Below are positions 40,528 through 49,171 of a stretch of DNA of 64,000 nucleotides, in pieces. Location: contig SKRM01000031.1 of assembly GCA_007118495.1 (NCBI GenBank), forward strand, positions 1 to 64,000, read 5' to 3'. The translations under genes and the position numbers were made by a program. The DNA comes from Bacteroidales bacterium (GTDB taxonomy: Bacteria; Bacteroidota; Bacteroidia; Bacteroidales; UBA7960). The notes under the pieces are model-generated. The model was not told the origin of the DNA. It did no database searches and worked only from the letters and a program-made list of their open reading frames with translations. Position 1 is the first letter of the stretch, and each line of letters starts with the position of its first letter.

Positions 40528-41406
40528 ATGAGTAAGAAAAACAGGAAACCGCCATGGCATCAGTATTTTCTGATCGCCATGGCGATACTCCTGAGCCTTT
40601 TGATGGTTGTTTCACGCGCATACCGTGCCTCACGCAGAGCAGGTATTGCCCATTCGGAAACTACGGCTGTTTTTGAACAGGCTGTGTCAGGGGTGCCTGA
40701 TACAGAAGAACGATCAGAAATATATGAACCCATGTATCCACTTCCAGAAAAATTAGCTTTACTGGGTCATATAGATCCGGTGTCAGATGATGGTTTTACC
40801 CTGATCGACAGGCGTTACGCAAACAGGCAGGGAATGTATATGCGGTCAGAAGCCTATGATGCATTTTTGCAGATGCATAAGGCAGCCCAGTCTGATGGTA
40901 TTAACCTGATTATACTTTCGGCTACCCGCCCATTTGATCACCAGAAAAGAATTTGGGAAGATAAATGGTTTGGCCGCAGGGTGCTCTACGGAAATATTCT
41001 TGCCACTGATATAGATGATTTGGCTGAAAGGGCCAGAGAAATATTGCGATTCAGTGCCATGCCGGGTACTTCAAGACACCACTGGGGTACAGATATTGAT
41101 CTGAACAGCTTGGACAACAGTTATTTTGCTTCAGGTGAGGGGAAGGCCGTGTACGATTGGCTCATAAAAAATGCTGCTGGTTTTGGTTTTTGTCAGCCAT
41201 ATACTGCCCATGGTGATAATAGAGAAGGAGGCTATGAAGAAGAAAAGTGGCATTGGTCATACCAACCCATATCATCTGTCTTTTTAAAAGCATATGAAGA
41301 TATGGTTGACTACGGGGATATTACTGGTTTTGCAGGATGGGAAATGGCTTCAGAACTTGATGTTATCTCGCGCTATGTGCTTGATATCAGCCAGTCGTGT
41401 TACTGA
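40528..41406 (+). CDS. M15-family D-Ala-D-Ala carboxypeptidase-like protein
   Basis: A 292-aa membrane-anchored protein with one N-terminal helix (YFLIAMAILLSLLMVV) and an extracytoplasmic M15 (VanY/DacB) domain. Zinc ligands are His and Asp in SRHHWGTDIDL (about 192-202) and His in EEEKWHWSYQP. YMRSEAYDAFLQMHKAA and SATRPFDHQKRIW are family segments. Probable role: trimming D-Ala from peptidoglycan side chains. Its last 20 bases overlap the convergent mobA gene. Confidence 0.92.
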   Translation: MSKKNRKPPWHQYFLIAMAILLSLLMVVSRAYRASRRAGIAHSETTAVFEQAVSGVPDTEERSEIYEPMYPLPEKLALLGHIDPVSDDGFTLIDRRYANRQGMYMRSEAYDAFLQMHKAAQSDGINLIILSATRPFDHQKRIWEDKWFGRRVLYGNILATDIDDLAERAREILRFSAMPGTSRHHWGTDIDLNSLDNSYFASGEGKAVYDWLIKNAAGFGFCQPYTAHGDNREGGYEEEKWHWSYQPISSVFLKAYEDMVDYGDITGFAGWEMASELDVISRYVLDISQSCY

Positions 41407-41986
41407 TCCCACGTGCATCGTCCCGGTAGTTGATGTTGTGGAATATCCGTTCATGGTAAAATCCTTCGTTTTCCACATCCAGAAATAGTACATCCATATC
41501 TTCAATTGCGTCAAGTATTTTAAACTTTTTTTTCTGGAGGGCTTCTTCTACCAGGGGCAGGCAGCTCACCTTGAAAATGGAACAGAGGGTCTCACTGTAT
41601 CCCTTATGGGTTGGGATGACCACCTGGTGATTTCCGGCATGATCAAGCAAAAACCTATATAGTTCGTTTGGTACAAATGGGGTATCGCATCCGGTAACCA
41701 ACAGGTAATCACCTTTTGCATGGGTAAGGGCACTGTGGATTCCCCCCATAGGACCGCAATGCTGATATATATCAGAAATGCATTCTGCCCGAATTGCCCG
41801 GTAATCTTCTTCCTGGTTGGTGCTTACAAAAACATGCTTGCAAAGTGGCTCCAGGCTGCTGAGGGCATGGAGTACCAAAGGTTTTCCGTCAAGCAGAAAA
41901 AGCCCTTTGTCCTGACCAAAGCGGCTGCTTTTTCCACCTGCCAGCACCACGCCACTGCAGCTAACATAATTAATGATTCTGTTCAT
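41387..41986 (-). CDS. mobA: Molybdenum cofactor guanylyltransferase
   Basis: A 199-aa MobA-family enzyme that transfers GMP from GTP to molybdopterin to make the bis-MGD cofactor used by DMSO-reductase-family enzymes. The nucleotide-binding motif GVVLAGGKSSRFGQDKG is at about residues 12-28. HCGPMGGIHSAL and the metal-binding VTGCDTPFVP follow. It is the last gene of the oxidoreductase operon and overlaps the upstream gene by 17 bases, so cofactor completion is co-expressed with the enzyme needing it. Confidence 0.94.
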   Translation of the reverse strand: MNRIINYVSCSGVVLAGGKSSRFGQDKGLFLLDGKPLVLHALSSLEPLCKHVFVSTNQEEDYRAIRAECISDIYQHCGPMGGIHSALTHAKGDYLLVTGCDTPFVPNELYRFLLDHAGNHQVVIPTHKGYSETLCSIFKVSCLPLVEEALQKKKFKILDAIEDMDVLFLDVENEGFYHERIFHNINYRDDARGISNTTG

Positions 41987-43703
41987 TTATGTAGTTGAAT
42001 ATTTGTCTGGCTGCCTGTTCTGGTTTGCTATGGCCCGCATGTATAATAAATGCAGCTTCGGTGTTATATTTTGCCAATACCTGTTCAACCATTGATTCTC
42101 TCACAACCCAGATCATTGGTTTTTGTCTGTCATTAACCAGTTGCCTGATGGTGGAGTCCCAACCCCGCCCCTTCATTTCCATAGGTCCAATTTCATCAAG
42201 AATAACCAGTTTGTCGGTTTTATAACTTTTGCATAGCACATCTTTACCGAACTGAAGGCCTTCTTCATTAAACACAAAGGGCCCGCTGCCATTTTCTTCA
42301 GTATTATTACGGGCAATCAAGAGTTTTTGAGATCCGAGCTGAATATCTTCAGCCCAGTAGCTGGTGTTTATCCCATTTTTATATTCAGCAACAGCGAGAA
42401 CACCCCCGGTTTTTATGTTTTTCTGATTGAGATTGCAGGCAAGTTCTCTTGCAAATGTGGTTTTTCCTTCGCCCTGCGAACCTGTTATTATGAAAACCGG
42501 CCATTTTGCAAGATGTTGTTTTTTAATATAATCTAATGAGTATTTCATGTTACCTACCATATGGGTGAGAACCCTCACGGGATTTGTCCATTCACGTTTT
42601 TCGGGAATTACCTGAATGAAAAGTGGTGTTGTCTGAAAGGCAAGCTGAACAGCATGATAAAACTGGCTGCCGTTTTTACCCCTGAAAAGTCTGATCAGTC
42701 CTGATGACCTGATAGATTTGCTGATCAATCCAAAGCCGGTTATGACATATAAGGCCCTCATCAGCATCTCAAGCCCGGCCAGAAACCCATGGTAGCTGAA
42801 ATATCCCCCATAGCCTGGATCACCCATCAGGAGGCTGGCCAATAAAAGCATGATGAGCATCCCGGCCCAGAAACCTTTTTTCCGGATAAACCTTTGCAGA
42901 ATCTGCTTATCGTAAATAAATGAAAACCATAGAAACAGAATAAGCAACCCCATGGCTGCAAAGACAGGAAGCACATTGATTGAATACAGACCTGCAATAA
43001 GTAACAGCAGCATAACAAATGGCCCGGCCAGTGATCCCCGTGTGTGATTGGTTGGCGAAGAGAATGCCCTGACAGGCATGCTGTCAGGGAAATTCCATTG
43101 TCCCTTATAGTTTACAGCCTCACGTGAAATCCATATTCCTGCTGCTCCTGCAACCATACCTGTTAGGAAAAAAACTGCCAGCAATATGATCAATGGGGTC
43201 CAGTATCCGGTGGTCGTAAGGCCAAGCTGATCCATTAGATATACAACCAGATTTTGGTATAATTCAACGAAAGTCAATCCATACAATACCAGAGATGAAA
43301 CAATACGGTATATCAGGTTGTAGCTCATAGCCATGCCTCCTCCAACCAAATAAGCGGGCCATGATCTTTTACCTGCCGAAACAGCCAGTTCCATCAGGCT
43401 TGCCTGCATGAAAATGGCCAGCATGGGACCAAAAATGACCGGACTTGGTGAAATCGACTTGAGTGCAGCACAAATCAAACCTGCCCTGAATAATACGCCC
43501 CTTTGGGGCCAGATGCGGTGTCCGGATACCATGATGATGATACCAATGGCAGTGAGGATATTACCAGAAAAGGGGATTTTTAAATTATGCAGAAAGCTGC
43601 CGAGTACAATCTCAGATGCTCCCCACAAACTGCCAATGACGGCTGCTTTGAGCCATATGTCTTTTTTGTCTTGCATCTTGATGTTGGTCACATTGTCTGG
43701 CAC
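41970..43703 (-). CDS. Polytopic membrane protein fused to THEP1-like P-loop NTPase
   Basis: A 577-aa fusion. Residues about 15-205 form about six hydrophobic helices reminiscent of an ECF transporter S component. Residues about 225-390 have more helices and a VQLAFQTTPLFIQVIPEKRE segment that resembles the membrane-coupling part of EcfT/CbiQ proteins. From about 400 comes a nucleotide-binding domain with Walker A GSQGEGKTT (about 404-412) and Walker B-like LVILDEIGPMEMKG (about 499-512), the pattern of nucleoside-triphosphatase THEP1. There is no ABC signature motif. It lies between the DmsC-like subunit and mobA (17-base overlap), so a role in molybdate, molybdopterin or nucleotide handling for the reductase is inferred. 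The S/T-component resemblance is by eye only. Confidence 0.8.
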   Translation of the reverse strand: MPDNVTNIKMQDKKDIWLKAAVIGSLWGASEIVLGSFLHNLKIPFSGNILTAIGIIIMVSGHRIWPQRGVLFRAGLICAALKSISPSPVIFGPMLAIFMQASLMELAVSAGKRSWPAYLVGGGMAMSYNLIYRIVSSLVLYGLTFVELYQNLVVYLMDQLGLTTTGYWTPLIILLAVFFLTGMVAGAAGIWISREAVNYKGQWNFPDSMPVRAFSSPTNHTRGSLAGPFVMLLLLIAGLYSINVLPVFAAMGLLILFLWFSFIYDKQILQRFIRKKGFWAGMLIMLLLASLLMGDPGYGGYFSYHGFLAGLEMLMRALYVITGFGLISKSIRSSGLIRLFRGKNGSQFYHAVQLAFQTTPLFIQVIPEKREWTNPVRVLTHMVGNMKYSLDYIKKQHLAKWPVFIITGSQGEGKTTFARELACNLNQKNIKTGGVLAVAEYKNGINTSYWAEDIQLGSQKLLIARNNTEENGSGPFVFNEEGLQFGKDVLCKSYKTDKLVILDEIGPMEMKGRGWDSTIRQLVNDRQKPMIWVVRESMVEQVLAKYNTEAAFIIHAGHSKPEQAARQIFNYINEQNH

Positions 43704-43721: not shown

Positions 43722-44588
43722 TTATATGCCGATGCGATAATAAGATGCATAAAAAAGGAAACGATCAAAGATGCTGGCAAGAAAAAGAAAGGTAAAAGCG
43801 ATATATACAAGGTTGGAGAAATCTCCCCCTGCCTTTGGTAAAACAAAGGCAAACCAATATGTAAGTATGCTAAAGCCAATCATCAGGAAAAAAGCCTGTC
43901 CTGCCCTGATCCAGGCAGGCAACTCAGGTGGTGGAAAACTACCGGCAGTGGCCAGCAGGTCTGGCTTAAGCCACAACACATTGGCCAGATGAATAAGTAC
44001 GGCTGCTGCCACCACCATAAACATCACTGAATGCATGAGTCTGGTTGGGCCGGGCATACCTTTCTTTGCCAGAAAGACCGTTGTCAGCATGACAAAACCG
44101 GCTCCAAGCAATAGTGCAGTATTGAAAAATGAAACAACGGTAGCCGGGGTATTCCAGGCAGGTACTGTCGGAATCATATAAAGCTTTGACATTGACCAAA
44201 TATAGATGATACCGGTTATACATGATGCCAGGTAGAGGTACCCGAATATATCCCTGTGAGGAATGTTGAATCTGTAAGATGAGTAGCCGAGCGCAAGAGT
44301 GAAGAAAAAAAGTGAAGCCAGCAGAATTTCTCTGCTCAGCCACGAGGTAGCCACATTGCTTAATGCGAAAACCGAATGCAGAGGGCTTGCCAGGTGAAGA
44401 AAAGAAATGACAAGCGCCACGCCCATGCTGCCCGTGGCTACTGTCATGATTACCCTGCGCATGTCATTTACTGCCAGTGGATGCGATTCTTTGATTGCCA
44501 ACCACAGAATCAGACCTGAAAGAATTACACCCAGACTTAGCTGAGACAAAATGGTGAAAAACACCAAAGGCCATTCGTTGTTGTTCAT
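43722..44588 (-). CDS. DmsC-like membrane anchor subunit
   Basis: A 288-aa membrane protein with eight predicted helices, matching the DMSO reductase anchor family. Family signs are the N-terminal PLVFFTILSQLSLG segment and the helix containing SFLHLASPLHS, with a conserved His in the region expected to take part in quinol oxidation, then SWLSREILLA. It would pass electrons from menaquinol to the Fe-S subunit. It starts two bases after the Fe-S gene ends, so the two are translated in equal amounts. Confidence 0.9.
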   Translation of the reverse strand: MNNNEWPLVFFTILSQLSLGVILSGLILWLAIKESHPLAVNDMRRVIMTVATGSMGVALVISFLHLASPLHSVFALSNVATSWLSREILLASLFFFTLALGYSSYRFNIPHRDIFGYLYLASCITGIIYIWSMSKLYMIPTVPAWNTPATVVSFFNTALLLGAGFVMLTTVFLAKKGMPGPTRLMHSVMFMVVAAAVLIHLANVLWLKPDLLATAGSFPPPELPAWIRAGQAFFLMIGFSILTYWFAFVLPKAGGDFSNLVYIAFTFLFLASIFDRFLFYASYYRIGI

Positions 44589-44590
44589 GG

Positions 44591-45205
44591 TTAAACCTCC
44601 TCTTTGTTGGCTATTTTTAAGTCACGATTACCAGATTTGCGACTGTCTCTGTGGGGCTTGACTACCAATGCAGGATTGGTAAATCTGTTTTCAGGCAGCG
44701 GAAAATATTCATTGCCGGCTCCGTACTTCAGTTCGAGGTCTTCAAGCAGACCAAAATCAAGTACACGCATCGGACAGGCAGAAACACATGCAGGTGGTTT
44801 TCCCTCTTCAATATAGTCAGCGCAAAGCGTGCATTTGGTCATAACCTTTTGTTCGTTGTCAAACTGGAGCGCTCCATAGGGGCATGTCCATTCACAATAT
44901 TTGCACCCCATACAACGATCGTAATTGATAAGCACAATTCCTTGCCCGTCTTTGACAATGGCTTTATTCGGGCAAGAATGCATACATACCGGGTCTTTGC
45001 AATGGTTGCATGCCATCGATACATGGTATGCAGAAATATTGTGGGTCCAGGCTTCACCCTGTTTGATCCAGTCTCCTCCGCAAACTTCGTATACCCTTCT
45101 CCATCTCACACCCAGGGGAGAATTGTGTTTGTCCTTACAGGCTACCTGACAGGTTTTGCAACCTGAGCAGGAGGATGAGTCAAAATAAAAGGCAAGTTGC
45201 TTCAT
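44591..45205 (-). CDS. DmsB-like four-cluster Fe-S subunit
   Basis: A 204-aa ferredoxin-like electron-transfer subunit. Four cysteine groups for four [4Fe-4S] clusters are visible: CSGCKTCQVAC (13-23), CNHCKDPVCMHSCP, CMGCKYCEWTCP and CTLCADYIEEG with ACVSACP. The start MKQLAFYFDSSSCSGC is typical of DmsB. It relays electrons from the membrane anchor to the molybdenum subunit on the outer face of the inner membrane. No signal peptide; it probably rides out with the Tat-exported catalytic subunit. Confidence 0.94.
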   Translation of the reverse strand: MKQLAFYFDSSSCSGCKTCQVACKDKHNSPLGVRWRRVYEVCGGDWIKQGEAWTHNISAYHVSMACNHCKDPVCMHSCPNKAIVKDGQGIVLINYDRCMGCKYCEWTCPYGALQFDNEQKVMTKCTLCADYIEEGKPPACVSACPMRVLDFGLLEDLELKYGAGNEYFPLPENRFTNPALVVKPHRDSRKSGNRDLKIANKEEV

Positions 45206-45220
45206 AAATCAAATAACGTA

Positions 45221-47650
45221 TTATTTATGGCTTTTAACCTCTACCATGATGGTATGTTGTGCATTGCCAAAGGCCAGCGGAGTCCACCGGTGGCTTGTCA
45301 GAACGTTGACATTGCCTCTTCTGTCAATGCCATCTTTGTCGGGTTCCCACCAGGCTCCCTGTGGAATATTCACAACCCCTGGCATGATTTTATTTGTGAT
45401 ACGGCATGGAATACTGATTTTCCCCCTGTCGTTGTATATAAGTACCTGTTCACCGTCACGTATACCTCTTGCCTGGGCATCGATAGGATTCATAAACAGC
45501 CTTTGCGGAAATGCTTCTTCAAGCCAGTCAATCCCATCATGTGTTGAGTGTACCCTCGACATATAGTGGTGTCCGAGGGCTTGCAGGGGATATTGTTTGC
45601 TTTCTTCTCCAAACGGACTTTCCCATTCCTGTATGTATTTGGGTACCGGCGGAATGGTGTCTGGCTGTCTCATATCAAACAGTGTTTTTGAGAACAACTC
45701 AATTTTTCCGGATGGAGTGTTAAGCGGGTGTTTGCCAGGGTCAGCCCTGAAATCTCTGAAGGCAATCTTTGGTTCGGTTACCGGATTGGTATACACGCCA
45801 CGGTTCAACTCGTGGAGTGTTTCCAGGTCGGGAATATCCGGGAAACGTGTATTGCGGTAGTACCTTACGGACCATTCAATCCACTCATATTCGTTGCGAC
45901 CCAGGGTGTACTCGTCTCTGAGTCCGAGTCGTTCTGCCAGGTCTGCTGCAATCTGGTAATCACTTTTACTCTCGTAAGCTGGTTCCAGTACCTTGGGCAT
46001 CATGATGACCTCATCGCCATATTTCCAACCATCCTCAATTCCCCAGACTTCAAATTGGGTGCAGGCCGGAAGCACCAGGTCAGCAAACCTGGCCGAAGGA
46101 GTCATAAACTGATCTTGAACACAAATGAATTCAACCAGGCTTTCATCCCTGAGAATTTCTGCGCTTCGGTTGGTATCTGCATGTTGGTTGATGAGTATAT
46201 TGGAGGCAACGCACCATATCAGTTTCAGATTGTTGTCAAGTTTGTCAACACCCCTCACACCTTCCCGGGCTCCCATCTCTTTTCCACGCAGGATGGCTTC
46301 TGTCCATAAAAATACCGGGATGGATGCCCTTACCGGGTTTCGTCCAACCGGAAAAATATTCCAGAATGGTCCGCCGTCGTCTGCCTGCAGGGCTATTCCA
46401 CTGGCCCATCCACCTGAAACACCCACATTTCCCGTTATGGCCGCGAGAACACATCCGCCCAATACAGGTTGCTCTCCATAGGCTCTTCTTTGCATCCCAT
46501 AGCCCTGGTAAAGCATGGCCGGTTTTATGGAGCCGTATTCTCTGGCTATTCTGATGATTGTTTGTTGCGGTATGCCGGTGATGGCCTCGGCCCATTCTGG
46601 TGTTTTTGGCTGCCCGTCGTGGGTTCCGAAGATATAATCAGTGTAGCTTTCTTCGTTCTCAAGCCCTTCAGGCATCTGTGATTTATCAAAGCCAATGCAA
46701 CATCTGCTGATAAATTCTTTATCATGCAGACCTTCTGAAATGATCACAAAAGCCATGGCACTCATCAGGGCAGTGTCGGTGCCAGGCCTGATGGGAATCC
46801 ATTCATCGGCCAGAGATGTGGCGCTCATACTCATGCGGGGGTCGATGCAGATAACCTTTGCTCCATTTTGCCTGGCTTTTTTGATATAGTATTCACTGTT
46901 GGTCCCGTCTCTCATTTCAGCCGGGTTCCAGCCCCACATGATGATATATTTTGAATTGACCCAGTCTTGTCTTTGATTTCCTGTCACACTTGTTCCGTAA
47001 ACATAGGGGGTGGCCCGGCTTATGCAGGCCCAGCTATAGCTATTGTAAAAACCCAGCGATCCGCCAAACAGATTGATTAATCTGGCTGCGGTTTGCCTGC
47101 CGTTTGTCTGGTTGTAGCTACCGGTACCGTATGGAACCAAAATGGCTGAATTTCCATACTTTGCCTTGACCCTTTTAAGCTCATGGGCAAGCAAATCAAG
47201 GGCTTCATCCCAACTGATCCGCTCAAATTTTCCTTCACCACGCTTACCTGTACGTTTCATGGGATATTTTAGCCTGTCAGGATGATATTGCCTTCGGCGG
47301 TATGCCCTGCCCCTTATACAAGCCCTTAATTGCGGGTCACTGATCTCGTCCGTTGGTCTGTCATCGGTTTCAATCCGGACAATCTCGCCTTCTCTGAGAA
47401 AAAGTTTCAGAACGCAACGACCACCACAGTTGTGGGCCGGACAACCAGCTCTAACCACAACAGTTCCGTCTTTTTCAAGCCTGCCCGGGAGCCGTATCCT
47501 TTGTTTGCTGTCAGTACATCCGATCAGGCTGCCAAATGCACCCAGCCCACCTGCCAGGATGGTTCCCATTTTCATGAAACAGCGGCGGTCTATCCCCTGC
47601 AAATCGGGATTTCCATCAGGCTTTTGGTAGTCTATATCATGTTCACGCAT
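45221..47650 (-). CDS. DmsA-like molybdopterin oxidoreductase, catalytic subunit
   Basis: An 809-aa bis-MGD enzyme of the DMSO reductase family. The N-terminus has a twin-arginine signal (DRRCFMKMG) followed by SLIGCTDS, which could also be a lipobox. A [4Fe-4S] site is formed by GCPAHNCGGRC with a later Cys in LRACIRG. The Mo-ligand position aligns with DmsA: SYSWACISRATPYVYG, with Ser where DmsA has its serine ligand. Other motifs include IMWGWNPAEMRDG and a C-terminal cofactor-binding domain (PVPKYIQEWESPFG onward). The serine ligand and DmsB/DmsC partners argue for an S- or N-oxide reductase-like terminal reductase, but the substrate is open. It begins 3 bases after the M28 gene. Confidence 0.93.
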   Translation of the reverse strand: MREHDIDYQKPDGNPDLQGIDRRCFMKMGTILAGGLGAFGSLIGCTDSKQRIRLPGRLEKDGTVVVRAGCPAHNCGGRCVLKLFLREGEIVRIETDDRPTDEISDPQLRACIRGRAYRRRQYHPDRLKYPMKRTGKRGEGKFERISWDEALDLLAHELKRVKAKYGNSAILVPYGTGSYNQTNGRQTAARLINLFGGSLGFYNSYSWACISRATPYVYGTSVTGNQRQDWVNSKYIIMWGWNPAEMRDGTNSEYYIKKARQNGAKVICIDPRMSMSATSLADEWIPIRPGTDTALMSAMAFVIISEGLHDKEFISRCCIGFDKSQMPEGLENEESYTDYIFGTHDGQPKTPEWAEAITGIPQQTIIRIAREYGSIKPAMLYQGYGMQRRAYGEQPVLGGCVLAAITGNVGVSGGWASGIALQADDGGPFWNIFPVGRNPVRASIPVFLWTEAILRGKEMGAREGVRGVDKLDNNLKLIWCVASNILINQHADTNRSAEILRDESLVEFICVQDQFMTPSARFADLVLPACTQFEVWGIEDGWKYGDEVIMMPKVLEPAYESKSDYQIAADLAERLGLRDEYTLGRNEYEWIEWSVRYYRNTRFPDIPDLETLHELNRGVYTNPVTEPKIAFRDFRADPGKHPLNTPSGKIELFSKTLFDMRQPDTIPPVPKYIQEWESPFGEESKQYPLQALGHHYMSRVHSTHDGIDWLEEAFPQRLFMNPIDAQARGIRDGEQVLIYNDRGKISIPCRITNKIMPGVVNIPQGAWWEPDKDGIDRRGNVNVLTSHRWTPLAFGNAQHTIMVEVKSHK

Positions 47651-47653
47651 AGT

Positions 47654-49171
47654 CTAGGGTGTTGATACAGGAATTTTATCCATGTTTGCTGCTTCAATAA
47701 TGGTCATGGTCAAAACCTTGATCACGTCGCGCATGATTTCAATGTCAATTTGGTCCATTGTGTCTTCAGGGACATGGTACAAGGTTGGCGTAGTCGCTCC
47801 CCTGGTGCTGAATGTAATGGCAGGAATGCTGGCGTTCGAAAAAACGGCGCCATCTGTTCTGGGTCTTATCTGATAATTCCAGGGGCCTGTTCTGGTTGTA
47901 AATGATCTGTGTACCCACCTGTCGTTATTTCTGTCAATAATATCCAGAACACCTTTCCAGGGCTCTGCGGTTGAAGCAAATAAGGCATTGCCCCTGCCCA
48001 CCATGTCAAGGTTGATCATCATGGTGATTTGCTCAGCAGGGTAGGGGAAATTTTCTACAAAATGTCTTGCACCTACCAGTCCGACTTCTTCGGCTCCAAA
48101 CAGCATAACAATAAGTGTCCTTTTCAATTCGACATCTGCTGTGGCGAGTGATTTGGCAATACCCATAACCAGTGCGCAACCAGATGCATTGTCAAGTGCC
48201 CCCGGAAACAAGACAGGCATCATGCCAAGGTGGTCGAGATGGGCTCCGATTATCATATACTCATGCTTTAGTTCGGGGTCGCTCCCTTCGATCATGGCTA
48301 CGACATTTGAAGTTGTCCCATCGGGGAAATAGTCGGTGGTAAGGGCTATGGTAGCTTGTTTGCCTGTTGCAAATGATTGGGGTGTGAGTGTATTTCTAAT
48401 CTTTTCCCTTACCTCGGTGAGGTTTTTGCCTGTTCCGGCAAACAAGTCTTCAACTACGCGGTCAGATGCCGCCAGAAAGATGAAATCGGGATCAACAGTT
48501 GGCCTTGGACTGGCTACATGGTAGGCAAAAATCAGACCGGCCGCACCATTTTCAAGGGCAAATCTTATTTTATTTGAATGATCAACATAGGGTGCCCACA
48601 TCATCAGGCTGTCTTGATTCTGCCCACTGTAAGGCACACCCAATTCGGTGATAACGATTTTTCCACTTACGTCAACACCTGCATAATCATCATATCCAAG
48701 TTCAGGAGCACTGATGCCGTGTCCCACATAGACTACCCCGGCAGTAACTTCACCGCTTCCGGATATTCCCCACGGCCAGTAGTCGTCACCATAGGTGTAG
48801 TTTTTTGTTACCATGTCATTGCCCTGGGGAATATGAATTTCAAGTTTGCCCTTGTCTCTCACCAGGGTATATGGCTGATCAAATTCCTGGAAAAAACCCT
48901 TGTCAGGGAAAAAAGGTTTTAGTCCCCATGATTCAAAGTGAGATGCGGCCCATTCAGCCGCGAGGTCGTATCCCACGTCACCGGCAAGCCTGCCACGCAT
49001 TTCGGGAGAGATCATGGTATGCATCCAATCGCGTATTTGGTCTTCTGAAACGCTGTGCAGTGCACGTATCAGGGTAGCATGGTCATTGTTACCGTATTGG
49101 GCTGCAACCGGTTGAAACAATCCGGTGCCCAACGCAAGCAATACAGTAACTATCAGTGGCTTTTTAAACAT
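47654..49171 (-). CDS. Exported M28-family zinc peptidase
   Basis: A 505-aa peptidase with signal peptide (LLALGTGLFQPVAAQ), a PA-type insert (VSGKIVITELGVPY) and a co-catalytic zinc domain. Ligands and catalytic residues are in IGAHLDHLG (about 310), GALDNASGCAL, FGAEEVGLVGA, NLDMVGRG and the late YHVPEDT. The family includes aminopeptidases and glutamate carboxypeptidases. It is the first gene of the reverse-strand operon that runs into the molybdoenzyme genes with only 3 bp between. Confidence 0.93.
   Translation of the reverse strand: MFKKPLIVTVLLALGTGLFQPVAAQYGNNDHATLIRALHSVSEDQIRDWMHTMISPEMRGRLAGDVGYDLAAEWAASHFESWGLKPFFPDKGFFQEFDQPYTLVRDKGKLEIHIPQGNDMVTKNYTYGDDYWPWGISGSGEVTAGVVYVGHGISAPELGYDDYAGVDVSGKIVITELGVPYSGQNQDSLMMWAPYVDHSNKIRFALENGAAGLIFAYHVASPRPTVDPDFIFLAASDRVVEDLFAGTGKNLTEVREKIRNTLTPQSFATGKQATIALTTDYFPDGTTSNVVAMIEGSDPELKHEYMIIGAHLDHLGMMPVLFPGALDNASGCALVMGIAKSLATADVELKRTLIVMLFGAEEVGLVGARHFVENFPYPAEQITMMINLDMVGRGNALFASTAEPWKGVLDIIDRNNDRWVHRSFTTRTGPWNYQIRPRTDGAVFSNASIPAITFSTRGATTPTLYHVPEDTMDQIDIEIMRDVIKVLTMTIIEAANMDKIPVSTP

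Follow-up and report, generated by a model that had tools for sequence, protein, structure and literature searches.

A predicted S-T-THEP1 membrane fusion linked to molybdenum and tungsten cofactor genes in Bacteroidota

The window analyzed here is a stretch of 64,000 nucleotides from a Bacteroidales bacterium (GCA_007118495.1, contig SKRM01000031.1), in which an operon for a dimethyl sulfoxide (DMSO) reductase-type molybdoenzyme carries a gene for a single chain of 577 amino acids. As supported by its predicted fold, this chain joins a membrane domain like the S component of energy-coupling factor (ECF) transporters, a second one like their EcfT scaffold (T), and a nucleoside triphosphatase (NTPase) domain of the THEP1 type. 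With a probability of roughly 0.6, we read the fusion as a one-chain importer that has THEP1 as its engine and whose cargo serves the molybdenum (Mo) or tungsten (W) cofactor. The S-type domain would bind the cargo, the T-type scaffold would hold the S domain, and the cytoplasmic THEP1-type NTPase would replace the ECF pair of ATP-binding cassette (ABC) ATPases and drive or gate release; the cargo would then supply the MobA and DmsABC proteins of the operon. Transport, its drive by NTP hydrolysis, and the cargo are what we infer from the gene and fold relationships below.

Three modules in one chain

The open reading frame (ORF) and its parts are as follows:

41970..43703, minus strand: S-T-THEP1 fusion ORF, 577 aa, GTG start
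43095..43673, minus strand: S-component-like membrane domain, residues 11-203 (VIA and Foldseek match to 5edl)
42498..43061, minus strand: EcfT-like membrane/coupling domain, residues 215-402 (VIA on a separate model)
41982..42500, minus strand: THEP1-type NTPase domain, residues 402-574 (PF03266 and 1ye8)
42456..42482, minus strand: Walker A GSQGEGKTT, residues 408-416 (translation and conservation among relatives)
42168..42197, minus strand: Walker B region DEIGPMEMKG, residues 503-512 (translation and conservation among relatives)

Of the 47 genomes in the family, 36 have a match (that of the window is one of them), and the ORF is therefore not a chance one; the plus strand across 41970-43703 is packed with stops. 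Relatives begin around Met10, and therefore translation may really start at the ATG at 43676. The one clear sequence match in the chain is to NTPase_1, with PF03266 covering residues 404-549 (E 4.5e-21, 75.9 bits, cut-off 23.9). Residues 1-383 have no Pfam match, even when E values up to 1 are allowed, and no relative of the membrane part turned up among solved structures searched by sequence. Viral contigs, when scanned, likewise yielded no relative.

The predicted fold is more informative. In the full-chain model (16 sequences, mean pLDDT 74, pTM 0.44), the S domain matches 5edl, an ECF S component, with a VIA Z of 12.6 (rmsd 4.0, 169 residues aligned), slightly below the VIA caution line of 13 for helical bundles, and with a Foldseek probability of 1.00 (E 0.022). 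This entry is the structure of YkoE and is named in a paper on YkoE with thiamine bound (PMC5037267). The YkoE family model, PF09819, matches 3 of 26 S domains (best E 3e-4; the match seen in full has 20.6 bits, under the cut-off of 25.2), and the S domain of the window has no match. When residues 215-402 were modeled separately (5 sequences, pLDDT 63), the top seven VIA rows were chains of ECF complexes (Z 8.7-6.8), followed by an unrelated row at 5.8; the output names the complex and not the subunit, and at 240-263 aa the chains are presumably EcfT. Foldseek alone gave a weak ECF match for this domain (E 0.58), and PF02361 (CbiQ) matches one separate T gene at E 0.038, which is weak sequence support. 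The NTPase domain matches THEP1 1ye8 with a Z of 16.9 (rmsd 3.0, 162 residues). For the full chain, Foldseek alone returned a mixed list with many major facilitator superfamily proteins, apart from 2i3b and 5edl.

An earlier note, made from the DNA letters alone, had proposed this 577-aa ORF without giving its strand, which is minus. The ORF is real, both motifs that the note named are found in its translation, and its call of a THEP1 and not an ABC P-loop domain agrees with PF03266 and 1ye8. The S and EcfT assignments, which had been made by eye, are upheld by the fold matches, and the proposed DmsC-like and mobA-like neighbors of the fusion are confirmed by PF04976 upstream and PF12804 downstream. 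The neighboring genes are as follows:

45221..47650, minus strand: DmsA molybdopterin oxidoreductase, DMSO/selenate type (TIGR02166, 933.5 bits, over cut-off)
44591..45205, minus strand: DmsB iron-sulfur subunit (TIGR02951, 227.8 bits, over cut-off)
43722..44588, minus strand: DmsC-like membrane anchor (PF04976, E 3.8e-24)
41387..41986, minus strand: MobA-like molybdenum cofactor guanylyltransferase (PF12804, E 3.3e-38, 131.8 bits)

The same-strand run reads M28 peptidase, dmsA, dmsB, dmsC, fusion, and mobA, spaced by 3, 15, 2, and 18 bp; the fusion and mobA overlap by 17 bp. The MobA-like protein is clear by Pfam and also matches NF001457 (E 8.7e-40), under the MobA equivalog cut-offs. The M28-type peptidase gene (47654-49171, minus strand) ends 3 bp ahead of dmsA; such a gene adjoins dmsA in 11 of the 12 loci of the group to which the fusion belongs.

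Distribution and gene arrangements

Across 296 genomes of the phylum Bacteroidota, the S domain was found in 29 genomes (hereafter carriers) from 12 families, where it recurs together with the NTPase in several fusion orders and also as separate genes. Among 66 non-redundant S genes, 35 are S-T-NTPase fusions like that of the window, 4 have the order NTPase-S-T, 18 are S ORFs of >290 aa with room for a T part (8 of them with an NTPase gene within 3.5 kb), and 9 are short S ORFs, 5 of which adjoin a T gene. The T part of the NTPase-S-T and long S ORFs is inferred from length; the T profile matched only the S-T-NTPase and split forms. In a quick tree of S domains, a branch with SH-aLRT 99 separates the 35 S-T-NTPase rows from the rest, and another, also at 99, separates the 4 NTPase-S-T rows. 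Three of the five split loci have the operon order S, T, TonB receptor, and NTPase, with the genes close or overlapping, and in the other two the NTPase is located elsewhere. A TonB receptor gene follows T in all five; the best NCBIfam matches of these receptors are B12 or heme receptor models, every one below cut-off, and therefore the receptors name no cargo.

A good NTPase_1 match is present in 22 of the 296 genomes, and 21 of these 22 are carriers (Fisher 1e-24; relatedness uncorrected). This count used E 3.9e-7 or better plus genome G016 (G and L numbers denote our numbered genomes and loci), a threshold set after the data had been seen; weaker or partial rows, such as those of G018, G108, G228, and G270, are uncounted. 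At E 1e-3, 134 of the 296 genomes have a match, many of them to a short P-loop only.

Short S paralogues also occur with neither T nor NTPase nearby (L090 10582, L093 888, L094 4852, and L185 5534). The one in L090 adjoins multihaem cytochrome and cytochrome b genes (Pfam), and those in L093, L094, and L185 adjoin ORFs of similar size. Conversely, the THEP1 genes at L179 7701-8862 and L180 7560-8706 overlap a gene for a MocA-like cytidylyltransferase (below cut-off), with no S or T in the stretch.

Linkage to molybdenum and tungsten cofactor genes

Gene company points to the Mo/W cofactor, a tie that is broader than the window. In the family of the window, a search of 47 genomes gave matches at 38 places, and neighborhoods were counted at 31 loci. 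The group of the window (12 loci, one of them on a contig that stops inside the fusion) has dmsA in 12 of 12 and mobA following on the same strand in 8, once at 2.5 kb. A second group (19 loci, about 30% identity) has mobA within 0.35 kb upstream in 7, where no reductase was found, and an oxidoreductase at a distance of about 3.4 kb in 2; in the remaining 10, several on short contigs, neither was seen nearby. Of the 29 carrier genomes, 15 have a member of the molybdopterin oxidoreductase family PF00384 within 12 kb of S, 14 have MobA there, and 19 have at least one of the two. Chance, taken from TIGR02665 and PF00384 counts with uniform placement and relatedness uncorrected, would give 1.25, and the maximum in 200,000 draws was 8. 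The 12-kb limit was chosen after the data had been seen: G267 (12.0 kb), G006 (16 kb), and G016 (26 kb) count as unlinked, G116 is counted through its NTPase gene and not its S gene, and G070 through a weak MobA match only (TIGR02665 8e-7; PF12804 5.9e-25). The nearby enzymes differ, being Dms in the window, a type II DMSO reductase over cut-off in L095, a Nap-like enzyme in L089, and a Phs-like one in L168 (the last two named from the closest NCBIfam model, with scores below cut-off); therefore, the shared factor is the cofactor.

The earlier note had tied the fusion to molybdenum from a single operon and had asked whether the same fusion occurs elsewhere in Bacteroidota, and whether homologues would mostly lack molybdoenzyme genes nearby. 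The fusion recurs (35 of the 66 S genes), and with 19 of the 29 carrier genomes linked, the homologues do not mostly lack such genes. The tie itself is supported by these genomes and by the riboswitch in relatives (below); no link was seen in 8 of the 12 families.

Some further neighbors recur. A small protein like carboxymuconolactone decarboxylase (CMD) opens operons for synthesis of the Mo cofactor (Moco) and also adjoins long S genes. These CMD-like genes are as follows:

L090, 322-639: CMD-like gene (similarity)
L188, 8619-8939: CMD-like gene (similarity)
L099 and L168: CMD-like genes (Pfam)
L170, L178, L182, and L104: CMD-like genes (similarity)

Moco operons also hold a chromate-transporter-like gene (L090 636-1160, PF02417 E 6e-45; L178 2-316, by similarity), which could possibly be a molybdate transporter. 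Cobalamin was considered as a cargo, prompted by a recurring three-gene block in the loci of one family (f17), and was rejected when the one locus tested proved to hold sugar-nucleotide genes.

A Moco-type riboswitch upstream of split relatives

Each of the five split S-T-TonB loci (L089, L091, L092, L094, and L095) has the Moco-type riboswitch RF01055 directly upstream of S and on its strand; the scores are 53-70 bits (gathering score 36), and the RNA ends within about 140 bp of the gene. Such RNAs precede genes for molybdate transporters, Moco synthesis, and Mo enzymes (PMC2408646). In none of the five alignments is the third consensus hairpin present; we take it to be P3, and RNAs without P3 have been tied to the tungsten cofactor (PMC2408646). 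The genome of L089 has a second RF01055 copy, with letters at the place of the third hairpin, before the Moco operon of L090 (CMD-ChrA-moaA-moaC-MOSC-moeA-mobA). A model built from the five RNAs and run over 65 sources found, beyond those five, one weak match (L090, E 0.019), which Rfam also calls. In the window, Rfam found no thiamine pyrophosphate, cobalamin, or Moco riboswitch.

Systems of BtuB with ECF or BtuCD salvage a cofactor and offer an analogy. Like them, the split relatives combine a TonB receptor with inner-membrane parts under a cofactor riboswitch; unlike them, they have a Moco-type riboswitch, mobA company, and THEP1 in place of the ABC ATPase.

Pterin cofactor or oxyanion as the possible cargo

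Two kinds of cargo could serve the cofactor, and we slightly favor a pterin cofactor or its precursor over molybdate or tungstate, a preference held tentatively and at less than even odds. No MoaC match was found in 17 of the 29 carriers, and 11 of these 17 match a molybdopterin oxidoreductase with an E of at most 1e-30. When MobA is required at E 1e-20 or better (a limit chosen after the data had been seen), 144 genomes qualify, and carriers make up 7 of the 8 without MoaC and 10 of the 136 with it (Fisher 7e-7; relatedness uncorrected); at E 1e-10 or better, the figures are 12 of 13 and 11 of 155 (Fisher 2e-11). MobA genomes without MoaC are thus mostly carriers, which makes the pterin cofactor itself a possible cargo; its uptake would explain MoaC loss, as metal uptake would not. 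One gene cluster illustrates the difference: the operon of G051 is CMD-moeA-mobA, and in its congener G062 and in G148 a chromate-transporter-like gene (cut by the stretch end and named by similarity in G062), moaA, moaC, and a MOSC gene stand between CMD and moeA-mobA. External salvage would be unexpected for a cofactor as labile as Moco.

The carriers with MobA and molybdopterin oxidoreductases and no MoaC match include G014 and the single-contig assemblies G124 and G132. In G124, tBLASTn of 0.93 Mb (25%) found no moaA, moaC, MOSC, or moeA, a share too small to establish absence. Searches for MoaA covered parts of genomes.

The fusion could instead be a high-affinity importer of molybdate, tungstate, or a metal chelate and not of a pterin; free or chelated oxyanion is a somewhat unlikely cargo in our estimate, and still the best of the alternatives. 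The following points speak for it: (i) the linkage to mobA and Mo enzymes would suit it, and the riboswitch of the split loci, which appears to lack P3, is of the kind tied to the tungsten cofactor (PMC2408646); (ii) ModB scores over cut-off in 0 of 29 carriers versus 100 of the 267 other genomes (Fisher 4e-6; relatedness uncorrected); and (iii) position 82 of the S domain is basic in 65 of 66. However, a permease related to ModB but below its cut-off (E 1e-37 to 1e-49) occurs in 6 of the 29 carriers (the single one identified, in the window genome, is WtpB-like), many non-carriers possessing MoaC are also without ModB, the closest structural match, YkoE, binds thiamine (PMC5037267), and metal import would leave MoaC loss in genomes with Mo enzymes unexplained. 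The fusion shares with the ModABC, WtpABC, and TupABC importers a neighborhood of Moco synthesis and Mo enzyme genes, but it is without their binding protein, ABC permease, and ABC ATPase; a scan of the fusion and its five operon-side neighbors found none of the ModABC/WtpABC kind.

A proposed THEP1-type engine in place of ABC ATPases

The NTPase domain has the domain family, fold, and Walker motifs of THEP1/NTPase_1 proteins (PF03266; 1ye8, 2i3b), and with its Walker residues kept, it may hydrolyze NTPs. Known THEP1 proteins are free soluble NTPases and are not known to have a clear role; here, the domain is instead joined to, or co-operonic with, ECF-like membrane parts. Compared with the group I ECF transporter YkoEDC, the fusion has the S fold (Z 12.6), an EcfT-like scaffold (Z up to 8.7), and a small-xxx-small pattern in S helix 1. 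It differs in that S, T, and a THEP1 engine share one polypeptide, in which Pfam found no ABC ATPase domain, and in that a motif search found an ABC ATPase ORF within 5 kb at 1 of 35 loci with enough flank (EcfA was not searched genome-wide). It also differs in its coupling signatures. Two Ala-Arg-Gly signatures are the contacts of T units with ABC ATPases (PMC3246461), and this pair is unconserved here: one of the 29 fusions aligned has two or more motif-like sites, and that of the window has none. Together, the fusion, the co-occurrence of THEP1 with S, and the loss of the ABC signatures make THEP1 powering an importer the simplest reading. By the features tested, the protein should not be classed among the ECF transporters; it would rather work like one with a swapped engine.

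It could be argued that S and T are a conventional ECF transporter relying on ABC ATPases from other loci and that THEP1 is accessory, as a MobB substitute or a regulator. Some ECF modules do serve several S units (PMC3246461), neither the fusion nor the rest of the genome of the window (G000) has a match to MobB (PF03205), and THEP1 genes adjoin mobA or mocA in some genomes. We consider this improbable, since the Ala-Arg-Gly pair is unconserved, the fusion has a dedicated T domain, and THEP1 is joined to S in both orders, with S present in 21 of the 22 genomes that have a good NTPase_1 match.

Less probable again is a receptor in which the S fold senses Mo or the cofactor and THEP1 signals to MobA, although the S-component fold does occur in receptors and sensor kinases (PMC11109136) and THEP1 genes pair with MocA-like genes where no S is nearby (L179 and L180). 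The AXXXA motif of S helix 1 binds S to T, and receptors of the same fold are without it and have bulky residues there (PMC11109136). In the fusions, small residues are kept at these positions (A20/G24 in 34 of 34 with the position, A21/S25 in 33 of 34; the window has A21xxxS25 and A20xxxG24), and strict AXXXA occurs in some separate-gene relatives, e.g., L089 and L092. The EcfT-like domain in the same chain and the TonB receptor gene after T in every split locus also argue against a receptor.

An unrelated cargo, such as a vitamin or a sulfur compound, with incidental Mo neighbors is comparably improbable: 10 of the 29 carrier genomes have no Mo gene within 12 kb and sulfur-transport and rhodanese genes lie near two loci examined (L120 and L098), but the linkage far exceeds the 1.25 expected, the riboswitch stands in 5 of 5 split loci, and mobA sits directly beside the fusion, with no reductase found, in 7 of the 19 second-group loci.

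Weighing the importer reading

Several observations weigh against a THEP1-driven importer serving the Mo/W cofactor. The Mo link appears in only 4 of the 12 carrier families (f1, f17, f20, and f35), and a good NTPase_1 match is absent from 8 of the 29 carriers. The T model is weak (pLDDT 63), and a Z below 13 for a helical bundle can reflect a common arrangement. Neither the window nor any other architecture tested gave an RF01055 match, and the five riboswitch-associated S genes form a single branch of the S tree (SH-aLRT 84); therefore, the association may have arisen just once. We found no earlier case of THEP1 driving transport and, in the open-licence literature, no report of THEP1 with ECF parts.

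The genome of the window adds a further difficulty. Its genes include moeA, moaC, a moaA of reduced length, and a WtpB/WtpC-like pair, and it may therefore need neither cargo from outside. Its MoaA is 266 aa long, with Mob_synth_C matched at positions 57-99 of 128 only. The WtpB/WtpC-like genes are located as follows:

L167, 7505-9351 (G000 contig 1, other than that of the fusion): WtpB/WtpC-like tungstate ABC genes (below cut-offs), beside moeA-moaA-moaC, with no binding-protein gene evident alongside by eye

Implications for the family

The more specific claim, that ECF S and T parts with THEP1 form a new class of primary active importer taking up the Mo/W pterin cofactor (or its precursors cPMP or MPT), is doubtful at present. 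If it holds, uptake of external pterin would let bacteria without MoaC run molybdoenzymes, and the S/T machinery would be drivable by a non-ABC engine, although ECF transporters are defined by their ABC ATPases. THEP1 would also gain a function. Should the cargo be a pterin, the 17 of 29 carriers without a MoaC match would be explained, and external Moco salvage would become directly testable.

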